In this document: positions 17,872 through 60,570 of the stretch, one piece after another
How the letters are laid out: every line of letters begins with the position of its first letter
Position numbering within the stretch: the first letter of the stretch is position 1
Assembly (NCBI RefSeq): GCF_001697225.1
Contig: NZ_CP014671.1
Location: 310,001-374,000 of the forward strand
Source: Immundisolibacter cernigliae
Lineage (GTDB): Bacteria > Pseudomonadota > Gammaproteobacteria > Immundisolibacterales > Immundisolibacteraceae
Length of the DNA stretch: 64,000 bases
Direction of reading: 5' to 3'
Notes under the pieces: model-generated
The model's database searches: none
Told to the model about the DNA's origin: nothing
The model's input: only the letters and a program-made list of their open reading frames with translations
Made by a program: the position numbers and the translations under genes

Positions 17872-18291
17872 GTGGCCAGTTCGCGTCCTGTTCGCTCGAA
17901 AAAGTCGCAAGCCGCCGGCAGCGCACTCGAAACCTTCGCCAACCCCCACCCGGGGCGGGACTACACGGTGCGCATGCGCTGCCCGGAATTCACCTGCCTG
18001 TGCCCGAAAACAGGCCAGCCGGACTTTGCCACCATCCACATCGATTTCGTGCCGGACCGGCTGTGCGTGGAGCTCAAGTCCCTGAAATTATATCTGTGGT
18101 CGTTCCGCGACCAGGGCGCGTTCCACGAGGCCGTCACCGGCAGCATCCTGGACGATCTGGTCGGCGCCATGGCGCCGCGCTTCCTGCGCGTGACGGCCGA
18201 ATTCCTGGTGCGCGGCGGCATTTACACCAGCGTCGTGGCCGAGCACCGGATGCCCGGCTGGACGCCCGCAGCGCCGGTGCTTCTGCCCTGA
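17872..18291 (+). CDS. queF: NADPH-dependent 7-cyano-7-deazaguanine reductase QueF
   Basis: A 139-residue unicellular-type QueF that reduces preQ0 to preQ1 in queuosine biosynthesis. The catalytic Cys44 lies in [11 protein letters not shown], followed by the acid/base Asp51; the QueF motif appears as [20 protein letters not shown]. The GTG at 17872 is preceded by cggag at a suitable distance, and family homology begins soon after, so an upstream TTG is less likely. The partner genes queC, queD and queE are not in the window. Confidence 0.95.
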
Positions 18292-18320
18292 CGCCGGCCC
18301 GCACCCGGCCTGTGATCTGA

Positions 18321-18475
18321 GGGGCACCTCGAAAAACCACTTCCCTGTGGTTTTTCGAGAATATCTTTCGCGGGAAACCCGCGAAAGACTCACGCCATTT
18401 CAATCGCTTGCGCGATTGATGCGTTGGGGCATCCATGCCCCAAGGGGCACCTCGAAAGGTTTTTCGAGGTGCCCT
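18321..18475. repeat. Array of five consecutive hairpins between convergent genes (D-like array)
   Basis: Between queF and the convergent ppsA lie five back-to-back perfect stem-loops: stems 18328-18340/18347-18359 (13 bp), 18364-18374/18378-18388 (11 bp), 18400-18407/18412-18419 (8 bp), 18424-18432/18435-18443 (9 bp) and 18445-18457/18462-18474 (13 bp). The 5' arms of the first and last stems share ggggcacctcgaaa. It may act as a two-way terminator, but five stems are more than termination needs. The architecture matches the array at 30648-30799, with different bases. Confidence 0.8.
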
Positions 18476-18515
18476 GACCGGGCTTGCCCGAAACCCCGCC
18501 GCGAGGCCGGATCGA

Positions 18516-20888
<2,373 letters not shown>

Positions 20889-21099
20889 GCGGCACTCCAG
20901 GAAGTTGAGACAGCAAACATCACAGCGCCCACAGGCAGGCACCCCGGACACACTGCGCACGGAAGCGCAGTCTCGGTCAGGTGATGGGAAACGCCATTTT
21001 GCCAGACCCAGCCCCGACGTCGCCCCCAGTCCGGATTCTGGCTGATCACGCACCCATGCCCCCAACCAGGCATTGCTTGATCGCAATCAGCCGCACCTT

Positions 21100-30114: not shown

Positions 30115-30324
30115 ATGGCAACTCACCCGAACCACCTTCGCCGGCTGCACGACAAGATCGACCGACTACCGCCCGAGCGACAGGCCGAGGTCGAGGACTT
30201 CGTGGAGTTCCTGAGCCACAAGGATCGGGATCGCGGCCTGGTCCGGGCGGCCACCAGCGCGTCGCAGTCGAGCTTCGCCAAGGTGTGGGAGAACCCGGAC
30301 GACGCTGTCTATGACGCGCTTTGA
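30115..30324 (+). CDS. Probable antitoxin (DUF2281-like) of the MazF-type pair
   Basis: A 69-residue acidic protein. The start MATHPNHLRRLHDKIDRLPP and EVEDFVEFLSHKDRDRGL resemble DUF2281 antitoxins, and the C-terminus SSFAKVWENPDDAVYDAL is the typical disordered tail. Its last 14 bases overlap the start of the downstream toxin. ATG is chosen at the conserved start; it is preceded by a weak gagga. Confidence 0.8.
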   Translation: MATHPNHLRRLHDKIDRLPPERQAEVEDFVEFLSHKDRDRGLVRAATSASQSSFAKVWENPDDAVYDAL

Positions 30325-30646
30325 GTTCGGCGACGTCGTTTTAATACCTTTTCCGTTTACTGATCAGTCCACCACCAAGAAACGCCCGGCGATTATCGTC
30401 AGTTCGCAGCACTACAACGCGCAGCGGCCTGATCTGATCGCCATGGCGGTGACCAGCCAATTACGGCCGCAAAACCGTTTCGACATCCCGCTTCAGGATT
30501 GGCAACAGGCCGGACTGCTGAAGCCTTCCGTCACGAAACCCGTAATCGCCACGATTGAGAACACGCTCGTCATCCGGTCGTTGGGAAGACTCAGTGATAA
30601 GGATCGACAGATGCTGGCGGAACAATTGCGGACATTTCTTGGCTAA
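30311..30646 (+). CDS. MazF/PemK-family endoribonuclease toxin
   Basis: A 111-residue toxin with the SH3-like MazF fold: FEFGDVVLIPFPFTDQS, the catalytic-loop stretch KKRPAIIVSS, and a later conserved TKPVIATIENTLVIRSLG. It should cleave single-stranded mRNA at short motifs. It overlaps the antitoxin by 14 bases. A hairpin array begins two bases after its stop and probably ends the transcript. Confidence 0.92.
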   Translation: MTRFEFGDVVLIPFPFTDQSTTKKRPAIIVSSQHYNAQRPDLIAMAVTSQLRPQNRFDIPLQDWQQAGLLKPSVTKPVIATIENTLVIRSLGRLSDKDRQMLAEQLRTFLG

Positions 30647-30647
30647 G

Positions 30648-30799
30648 AAAGCGCTGAATAAATCCATCCTGGATTTCTCAGCGCCCACCATCGGAAAAGC
30701 GTGGTTTTCCGATGGCTCACAAAATCAGCGGCTTACCGCCGCTGATTTTGGCAGCGCGTCCCTGCGCTGCGGGAAGCGCTGAATAAATCAGCGCTTCCC
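30648..30799. repeat. D array: five consecutive hairpins
   Basis: Directly after the MazF-type stop codon are five perfect stem-loops: 30660-30666/30670-30676 (7 bp), 30688-30698/30705-30715 (11 bp), 30721-30732/30738-30749 (12 bp), 30751-30757/30764-30770 (7 bp) and 30771-30782/30788-30799 (12 bp). The motif gcgctgaataaatcc at the start recurs near the end and in the copies at 46.3 and 60.4 kb. It may terminate transcription, or it may be a mobile or structural element of its own. Confidence 0.8.
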
Positions 30800-30833
30800 T
30801 AATTCAGGCGGGATATTGAATGTTCGGGCTGCC

Positions 30834-30898
30834 TGTGGGAGGCCCGCCCCGGGCCGAACAGGGCGGCGCAGGATTCGCGGCGGGGGCGCCGCTCCCAC
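30834..30898. repeat. B element
   Basis: A standard 65-bp copy: gtgggaggcccgccccgggc half, a short variable linker, and the inverse gcggcgggggcgccgctccc half ending in cac. Both ends carry GTGGGAG heads facing outward. Confidence 0.85.
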
Positions 30899-46310: not shown

Positions 46311-46393
46311 GGAAGCGCTGAATAAATCCATCCTGGATTTCCCAGCGCCCGCATCCCCGGGCTGCGGGAAACGCCGAATACTTCAGCGTTTCC
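46311..46393. repeat. D array, short form
   Basis: After ggaagcgctgaataaatcc come the same small hairpin as at 30.66 kb (aaatccatcctggattt), a gcatccccgggctgc stretch and a terminal ggaaacgc...gcgtttcc hairpin. It lies directly after the lapC-like stop codon and probably ends that transcript. Confidence 0.75.
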
Positions 46394-47770
46394 TCAACGC
46401 TCCCGCAGCGCCCGCTCCCTGGCACGGTTGATCGGCCGCAGCAGGTAGTGCAGCACGCTCTTGCGGCCGGTGAGCACGTCGACGGTGGCGGTCATGCCCG
46501 GAATTATCGGCAGGGAGTCGCCATCCTTGATGTAGCCGCGGTCCAGGGTGCGCACCCGGATCAGGAAGAAGCTGCGCTCGCCACCCTTGTCGTCCTCCTG
46601 CGTGATCGAGTCGGCGCTGATGTGCTCCAGGGTCGCTTCGAGTGCGCCGTAGATGGTGGAGTCGTAGGCGGTCAGCTTGACCATGGCGCGCTGGCCGGGG
46701 TGCAGGAAGGCAATGTCCCGCGGCTCGACCTTGGCCTCGACCAGCAAGCTGTCCTCCAGCGGCACGACTTCGACCAGGTCCATGCCCGGCTGCACCACGC
46801 CGCCGACGGTGGTCACTTTCAGGCGCTTGATGGTGCCGCGCACCGGCGAGCGCACCGAGGTGCGCGTGACCCGGTCCAGCGCCGCGGTGTTGTTCTGGGC
46901 CGTGGCGGCCAGCTCTGCCTTGGCGTCGTTGAGCAGCCCCTGGGCCTCGGTGCGGAACTTGATCCTGACGTCCTCGATCTTGTCGCGGCTCTCCTGCAGC
47001 GCCGAGCGGGCCGCCGGCAGGCGCAGGCGGATGCCGTCCAGGTCGCCGCGGACTTCGTTGACCTGGCGCTTCAGGCGCAGCAGTTCGACCTCCGAGATCA
47101 CGCCCTCGGCCGCCAGCGGCGCGGTGCGGTCCAGTTCGTCGCGCAGCAGGGCGTTGCTGCGTTCCAGTTGGCCCAGACGCGACTGCATCTCGAACACTTC
47201 CTGCTGACGCTGGTCGCGCTGCTGTTCCAGGATTTGCACGCTGGAGGCCAGTTCCTGCTGGCGCGTCAGGTACAGCCGGCGCGCGTCTTCGGCCAGTTGC
47301 GGGGCTTCCTGTTCGATTTCCTGCGGCAGGGTCAGGGGTTTGCCCTCGGTCTCGGCGGTCAGGCGCGTGACCTGCGCCAGCAGCGCCAGGTACTTGAGGC
47401 GGCCTTCCTGGTAGGACGAGGCGAAGCGCGTGTCGTCGATGCGCAGCAGGATCTGGTCCTTGGCCACCACGTCGCCTTCGCGGACCAGGATTTCCTGCAC
47501 GATGCCGCCTTCCAGGTTCTGCACGATCTGCACCTGGCTGGACGGGATGATCTGGCCCTCGGCGTGGGTTACCTCGTCCACCTGGGCCAGGGCCGCCCAC
47601 ACCAAGCCCACCACCAGCAGCACGGTAACTGCCAGCAGGATCATGTGCCCGGCCGGGTGGGCGGGATCCAGATCCACGGCCGTGGTGTCGGCCATGTAGT
47701 CCAGGTCGTCGCGGTCGACGTCCCGCCACAGCAGGCGCAGTTCCGCCCAGCGGCGGCGCAGGAAGTTCAT
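46394..47770 (-). CDS. lapC: Type I secretion membrane fusion protein (LapC/HlyD family)
   Basis: A 458-residue inner-membrane adaptor: one membrane segment near residues 42-63 (MILLAVTVLLVVGLVWAALA), a biotinyl-lipoyl-like lobe (GGIVQEILVREGDVVAKDQI), a long periplasmic coiled coil (about residues 140-290) and a C-terminal beta domain (SPVRGTIKRLKVTTVGGVV, PGMTATVDVLTGRKSVLHYL). It bridges the ABC exporter and an outer-membrane TolC-type channel not present here. It overlaps the lapB-like gene by four bases. Confidence 0.93.
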   Translation of the reverse strand: MNFLRRRWAELRLLWRDVDRDDLDYMADTTAVDLDPAHPAGHMILLAVTVLLVVGLVWAALAQVDEVTHAEGQIIPSSQVQIVQNLEGGIVQEILVREGDVVAKDQILLRIDDTRFASSYQEGRLKYLALLAQVTRLTAETEGKPLTLPQEIEQEAPQLAEDARRLYLTRQQELASSVQILEQQRDQRQQEVFEMQSRLGQLERSNALLRDELDRTAPLAAEGVISEVELLRLKRQVNEVRGDLDGIRLRLPAARSALQESRDKIEDVRIKFRTEAQGLLNDAKAELAATAQNNTAALDRVTRTSVRSPVRGTIKRLKVTTVGGVVQPGMDLVEVVPLEDSLLVEAKVEPRDIAFLHPGQRAMVKLTAYDSTIYGALEATLEHISADSITQEDDKGGERSFFLIRVRTLDRGYIKDGDSLPIIPGMTATVDVLTGRKSVLHYLLRPINRARERALRER

Positions 47771-60367: not shown

Positions 60368-60393
60368 GCGCGGTCGCCGGTTCCCGTTCATCC

Positions 60394-60570
60394 GGGGAAA
60401 CGCCGAAGTATTCAGCGCTTCCCGCAGCGCAGGGAGGCGCTGCCAGAATCGGTGGTTGTAGGAGCCCGGCTTTGCCGGGCGATCATCGCGCAGCGAAGCT
60501 GCGCTCCTGCCGGGTTTTTCCCGCTGGCAGGCGCCGGGGAATCCAGGACGGATTCATTCAGCGCTTCCCC
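60394..60570. repeat. D array split by an A-type REP pair
   Basis: Between the oxygenase and the SDR gene: ggggaaacgccgaagtattc ... ggcgctgccagaatc, then a complete A pair (60457-60510), then ggcaggcgccggggaatcca and a final cattcagcgcttcccc. The outer arms can still pair, so the REP seems to have inserted into a D element. Confidence 0.78.

Follow-up and report, generated by a model that had tools for sequence, protein, structure and literature searches.

Two arrays of five consecutive hairpins in a 64-kb stretch of bacterial DNA (G000:C1:310001-374000, from a genome of 3.24 Mb; the whole of this stretch is referred to as the window) are best read as a MITE that is mobilised by an IS5-family transposase and carries an RNA with two predicted CsrA/RsmA-type sites, a reading to which we assign a probability slightly above one half (about 0.52). 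Both the mobility of the element and its RNA structure are well supported. The arrays – designated A and B – would be copies of a class of non-autonomous transposon (MITE) of about 155 bp; the five-stem elements of this size are dispersed and non-coding.

Two related arrays of five hairpins

Array A (18321-18475, with the putative RNA on the minus strand) was recognised by a hairpin scan, by its fold and by matches to two covariance models, R1 and R2. Five stems of 13, 11, 8, 8-9 and 13 bp follow one another head to tail between 18322 and 18474, in the space between queF (plus strand, ending at 18291) and a PEP synthase-type gene (minus strand, 18516-21086; neighbours identified by Pfam). The original prediction described five back-to-back perfect hairpins at this site and these are real: a scan of the 64 kb for runs of at least three hairpins returned arrays A and B only, each with five stems, and such runs were absent from five first-order Markov resamplings of the window. 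As single-stranded DNA, the segment spanning array A (18315-18480) folds with z = -13.9 and that spanning array B (30640-30805) with z = -12.4, and in neither case did any of 200 shuffles fold equally well; folds are strong on both strands of both arrays. A chance origin is ruled out by the z-scores, shuffles and resamplings. The common start noted for the outermost arms of array A consists of 15 identical bases (18320-18334 and 18443-18457), and the second five-stem array, previously placed at approximately 30648-30799, is array B, at about 30647-30798 (putative RNA again on the minus strand). No Rfam family reached its gathering score within the window.

Array A is bounded by a perfect 17-bp terminal inverted repeat, all 17 bases of the left arm (18322-18338, plus strand) being complementary to the right arm (18458-18474, minus strand). 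These ends (GGGGCACCTCGAAAAACC...) are unlike those of array B, and the repeat core is absent from the six PF01609 loci checked (L061, L062, L063, L064, L067 and L074). TGA stands outside both ends, a possible 3-bp duplication of array A seen by eye. Read on the minus strand, the loop of stem 1 (18328-18359) is CAGGGAAG and that of stem 4 (18424-18443) is AUGGAU, and each contains GGA. In the minimum-energy RNA fold of array A stem 4 is partly opened and outer pairing is favoured; in the RNA fold of array B all five stems stand. No sigma-70 promoter-like site was found in array A.

Covariance models made without array A nonetheless recover it – R1 (11 sequences: six from the source genome, four from G001 and one from G008) at 64.9 bits (E = 7e-17) and R2 (27 sequences from 27 genomes) at 65.4 bits (E = 5e-14) – and arrays A and B are thus related to each other. 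Array B itself scores 182.6 bits against R1. Elsewhere in the genome array A has one copy at 88% identity and two partial copies. The orthologous site in the congener G001, with flanks 95% and 96% identical, holds a copy in which element positions 71-155 are kept and the first 70 bp are gone: the array A insertion is old, and the same site is occupied, in shortened form, in the congener.

Dispersal, ends and target duplications

Array B is inserted where a PemK-like toxin gene ends, at its stop codon. It is flanked by CTAA on the left (30643-30646, plus strand; the last three bases, TAA, serve as the stop codon for the reading frame 30311-30646) and on the right (30799-30802, plus strand), target duplications that were read from the sequence. 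Its right terminal repeat (30781-30798, minus strand) is identical at 17 of 18 bases to the end of a resident 1.22-kb IS5-family element. The remainder of array B is unrelated to that element, and an origin by plain deletion from this IS is ruled out, since the ends alone match. The IS accounts for 12 of the 14 PF01609 matches in the genome and its transposase is of the IS5 family (NCBIfam NF033581, 325.7 bits against a cut-off of 140). All 12 loci (L062-L073) measure 1219-1220 bp and have identical 4-bp flanks – CTAG (one), CTAA (four), TTAG (four), TTAT (one) and TTAA (two) – in a survey that shows identical-flank pairs only and in which every one of L062-L073 appears. The target duplications of B-type copies are of the same kind, being 4 bp and of YTAR type. 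Given these common ends and duplications, B-type copies would be mobilised by the resident IS5-family transposase.

BLAST-level relatives of array B number at least some 40 in the genome (40 of 104 candidates scored), which rules out a single unique locus, and with R2 there are 69 matches at E <= 0.01 (150 candidates scored; one overlapping pair; many fragments). Once aligned, copies show sharp ends. Within the window there is a shortened copy at 46312-46396 (plus strand; R2 E = 2e-9), from which the middle is deleted and in which both ends are present, and at 60393-60567 (minus strand; R2 match and sequence) a copy of array B that contains a nested REP/BIME-like double hairpin. Canonical sequence is present at both ends of 39 of the 109 elements compared across many genomes, the other 70 being 69 that lack canonical ends and one at an edge. 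Of the 39, 24 have the same 4-bp word on either side (TTAA in 10, CTAG in 4, non-palindromic words in 10). Carriage on plasmids or phages was rejected on the absence of matches, for two elements in PLSDB and for one element in a phage set. REP/BIME sequences as the whole explanation are ruled out by the target duplications and by the GGAA...TTCC ends, REP-like units being merely nested in some copies. Taken as a whole, the arrays are almost certainly a mobile element.

Several features of these loci are recorded separately. The target duplication flanking array B supplies the stop codon of the PemK/MazF-like toxin gene (30311-30646); no counterpart of this gene was found in G001, G002 or G003, and with it no empty site for array B. 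A REP-like hairpin stands beside array B at 30835-30898; the congener G001 has many further copies of it, some of them arranged in tandem. Double hairpins of REP/BIME type occur inside the stem 2 loop of B copies (60393-60567 in the window; L031, L038, L039 and L041), and L041 has an additional hairpin within stem 1, so that hairpins are nested in hairpins. At about position 87800 of G000:C1 (L063/L046) a copy of the IS5-family element directly abuts a MITE copy, with CTAA common to both.

Conservation of the five-stem fold

Elements detected with R1 are present in 51 of the 274 genomes surveyed from the class (38 of 222 genera), and the number of matches per genome often reaches the best 11 candidates scored, that is, at least 11. 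A few of the lowest-scoring R1 matches are likely to be spurious, L252 (G100) and L257 (G189) failing to form five hairpins. With R2, 398 genomes of the phylum were surveyed and 50 contain elements; 47 of the 50 carry labels outside the class, most in one family. Of the 30 loci taken from this survey, those used exclude L273, L274, L289, L291, L293, L294 and L296, as well as L097, which had already been used. Named hosts among the matches listed by a pattern scan include uncultured Pseudomonadales, Thiotrichales, Halothiobacillus and Pseudohongiella. Arrays are thus common in relatives, whereas their absence there was one half of what would have refuted the original prediction.

The architecture, and not the bases, had been proposed to be conserved, and this extends far past the window, to paired changes in the stems across many genomes. 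In the array of G008, which belongs to another family, every stem is rewritten while loops and linkers are retained. Alignment A9 (27 sequences from 27 genomes, obtained from the 31 sequences of A8 by removing L081, whose stems were shifted by the aligner, and L120, L125 and L126) has 90.8% of cells paired, compared with 76.5% in shuffles, and changes on both sides at 44 of 58 pairs (219 such cells); none of 500 shuffles reached any of these measures. Slid structures pair 36-49% of cells, a control that is somewhat favourable because the structure was derived from one row. Five top-level hairpins formed in 99 of the 106 elements folded. The inner layout is constant and the terminal types vary by lineage (GGAA-CTCTGA, GGAA-CGCTGA, GAGG-TGTCGC, GCAGGGCGTTGAAAAA, ACAGGTTGTTGAAAAA and others). 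Selection on RNA structure is, on these grounds, very probable. The original prediction had set a structured RNA and a mobile hairpin cassette side by side as options; each stands, and the two are supported jointly rather than as alternatives. For its third option, a site for nucleoid proteins or a nuclease, the sequences gave no sign.

Two departures from the standard arrangement were seen. At G026:C1:2569116-2569521 and at L133 (1-156) elements follow one another head to tail with a period of 124 bp, neighbours sharing one terminal stem. A variant in G154 (L250, L256 and L261) is about 165 bp long and gives 72 matches (both strands counted), many copies matching on both strands; its two GGA loops are instead in the third and fourth hairpins.

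Strand and loop sequences

Mispairs within stems differ between the strands. In the first set of elements, forward-strand A.C exceeded G.T by 81 to 41 unique events and by 23 genomes to 3, with 5 ties (p = 4e-4 and 9e-5, on the assumption that genomes are independent, which is not quite so). A further set of 45 elements from 28 genomes – short loci repeating first-set elements being omitted, and three of the 28 genomes being common to both sets – gave 45 to 25 events (p = 0.02) and 16 genomes to 4, with 6 ties. Stem 3 contributes 41 of the 81 A.C events of the first set; it is even (8:8) in the further set, where the excess lies in other stems. Since the mispairs are thus enriched for G.U on the reverse strand, this strand is the probable RNA, and judged from the sequences it is likely that the RNA is read in the order stem 5-4-3-2-1. 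What is preserved would be this reverse-strand RNA, its five stems kept by paired changes across genera.

Preservation might alternatively occur in the DNA, either through template switching that corrects quasi-palindromes or through the transposase or another enzyme that reads DNA hairpins, with RNA being irrelevant. Replication template switching can maintain perfect palindromes; moreover, the elements fold equally strongly as DNA and the transposase ends lie within the terminal stems. Upkeep of this kind nevertheless leaves unexplained the conserved loops and the excess of G.U mispairs on one strand, which holds whatever the genomic orientation, and we consider it very unlikely.

The loops were scored on the reverse strand. 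Because 53 of the 106 elements had been retrieved with a pattern in which the stem-4 loop is prescribed, counts refer to the other 53: GGA is present in the loop of stem 1 in 48 and of stem 4 in 50, and among the 45 further elements in 43 and 42, respectively. In the same 53 unselected elements stem 4 has ANGGA in 41 and the strict SELEX core ACARGGAUGU occurs in 9. The elements generally have at least two hairpin-loop (A)NGGA motifs, as is the case for CsrA/RsmA-binding RNA. A GNRA loop in stem 3 was considered as a general feature and dropped (14/53, 28/53 and 10/22 elements).

A predicted link to CsrA/RsmA

The binding site of CsrA has been described as the SELEX consensus RUACARGGAUGU, with an ANGGAN hexaloop (PMC7652899). 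By sequence, the GGA loops of stems 4 and 1 are the signature of CsrA/RsmA binding given in that source, and in many copies stem 4 fits the hexaloop description; the (A)NGGA loops of these two stems would, on this prediction, be bound by CsrA/RsmA. CsrA may bind less readily where a stem is very stable (PMC7652899), and the stems of the elements are more stable than those of typical CsrA sites.

Comparison with Rfam points to the same protein. The full RsmW model (RF02809, clan CL00106; model positions 1-124) aligns to six elements of three genomes among 40 short loci. Every match is on the reverse strand, and the alignment brings the two GGA loops into register. Scores are 45.6, 42.7, 41.7, 39.2, 36.5 and 35.9 bits (E from 1.5e-5 to 1.5e-3), the best of them below the cut-off of 52, and no family of the clan reached its gathering score. 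At the same permissive thresholds RsmW was not matched by the remaining 34 of these 40 loci. Longer scans that include L116 and L286 do not list RsmW for either locus, so that its detection hinges on short scans, in which filters are laxer. RsmV and TwoAYGGAY, of the same clan, also match weakly on the reverse strand; TwoAYGGAY (RF01731) matches the G154 variant at 30 bits, with E of 0.29 and 0.88 in two scans, far below the cut-off. Among 4227 Rfam families it is thus clan CL00106 that recurs, always on the predicted strand. In two copies from G016 (L121/L354 and L359) the entire gyrA RNA model (RF01740) is covered by stems 2 and 1 and their linkers, with scores of 39.5 bits (E = 1.1e-7) and 31.4 bits (E = 4e-5) against a cut-off of 45. 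Several unrelated Rfam families likewise match weakly. A separate observation concerns TD-2 RNA (RF03162), which matches five loci of G391 (L335, L336, L338, L339 and L340) on the putative RNA strand at 28.9-36.8 bits (cut-off 48.7).

Matches to csrA (PF02599) are present in 45 of 51 element-positive genomes and in 190 of 223 others, four csrA-negative genomes being counted from their absence in the list of positives; across the 274 genomes no association of elements with csrA is apparent, and such an association was rejected on these counts. In one genus that has elements with GGA loops, G130 (95% complete) and G244 (55% complete) have no csrA match, and G130 has ten element matches in which the loops are kept.

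The lack of an apparent association with csrA, the genus with elements and no csrA match, the sub-threshold scores of the RsmW matches and the stability of the stems each agree with a conserved reverse-strand RNA that has some other partner, such as the ribosome, by way of Shine-Dalgarno-like GGA loops, or a different RNA-binding protein. Such a partner would leave without explanation the recurrence of a single clan on the predicted strand and the fit of stem 4 to the hexaloop description, and we regard this alternative as quite unlikely. On the basis of the motif, the strand bias and the sub-threshold Rfam matches, the chances that CsrA/RsmA is the partner appear about even.

Placement and likely effect

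The position of 131 elements relative to genes was surveyed with crude in-house ORF calling. Elements lie 18 times in the forward and 17 times in the reverse orientation; a further 31 are between convergent and 18 between divergent genes, 18 are inside an ORF and 29 have no clear neighbour. (A cruder count based on masked flanks, 19 to 25, is superseded by these figures.) Placement in cis in one orientation was rejected on the 18 to 17 count and, orientation being even, an effect on the flanking gene is unsupported.

This distribution bears on a simpler account, in which the element is a MITE of the usual kind with no RNA-binding partner: its tandem hairpins would do no more than stop transcription, or insulate, in both directions and so make insertions harmless. 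It accords with the intergenic location, with the preponderance of convergent over divergent neighbours and with the strong folding of both strands. Array A has one terminator-like site (a G+C-rich hairpin plus a T run) that might serve as such a stop; the expectation is 0.5 (sd 0.9). A terminator, however, has no need of five stems in fixed order across genera, of GGA loops that stay constant in stems 1 and 4, or of a strand-specific G.U bias, and this account is unlikely.

If the element is instead an IS5-mobilised MITE with CsrA/RsmA-type sites, read-through transcripts of many copies would carry a putative two-site platform for CsrA/RsmA, and the likeliest effect would be titration of the protein or the tagging of host transcripts. 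Because orientation relative to genes shows no preference, the effect would be exerted in trans, or selection would act on a few source copies and not on each insertion. The terminal stems would double as the recognition ends of the transposase; with these ends swapped between lineages, one RNA module would have been used with several end types.

A more speculative proposal, which we hold to be possible and less probable than not, is that of a mobile riboregulator: a class of transposon that spreads a two-site, predicted CsrA/RsmA-binding RNA through several classes of Pseudomonadota, exchanges its ends for those of different transposases and has served as raw material for RsmW (stems 4-3-2-1) and for the gyrA RNA (stems 2-1) of Pseudomonas. 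If true, a transposon has a regulatory RNA as its conserved cargo, and dozens of CsrA/RsmA sites could be gained by transposition alone. There would then be a testable origin for many seemingly unrelated Csr/Rsm small RNAs, and a common repeat of uncultured Gammaproteobacteria and their relatives would be an unlabelled layer of global regulation.

Comparison with known systems

No description of a five-stem element, or of a MITE class with a selected RNA fold and exchangeable ends, was found in the open-access papers searched. The closest mobile relatives are IS5-family MITEs, which are likewise short, gene-less and dispersed, and which have terminal inverted repeats and a target duplication in common with a resident IS5-family element. 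Here, in contrast, the interior is a five-stem module with paired changes across genera and classes, and not a piece of the resident IS, and the terminal repeats vary by lineage. QMITE1 and QMITE2 of Coxiella burnetii are also gammaproteobacterial MITEs with strong folds, some of which have turned into small RNAs (PMC5896051); QMITE2 differs in its 7-11-nt duplications and in its GTAG REP, and the word 'CsrA' is absent from the main text of the same paper. REP/BIME palindromes resemble the elements in being dispersed intergenic hairpins, and REP-like ones are nested in some B copies, but the five-stem elements have target duplications and IS5-type ends and are without the GTAG start.

Among RNAs, TwoAYGGAY shares the two GGA hairpin loops; CsrA binding has been proposed for it from the motif, and mobility is not described in the available part of that source (PMC4333381). 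The gyrA RNA, a candidate RNA listed as a Pseudomonas motif (PMC2864571), corresponds to stems 2 and 1, but this is half of the element only and the match is below the cut-off; the gyrA leader of Pseudomonas may be a fossil of a five-stem element. RsmW of Pseudomonas aeruginosa binds RsmA with a Kd of 11.5 nM and derives from the 3' UTR of PA4570 (PMC4950607). Its four hairpins come in the order that stems 4-3-2-1 have when the reverse strand is read, the first and the last having GGA loops. It differs in that the elements score below its gathering cut-off and in that RsmW is a single locus, for which the available part of PMC4950607 describes neither a stem 5 nor dispersal. Tentatively, RsmW or the gyrA RNA could descend from elements of this type.
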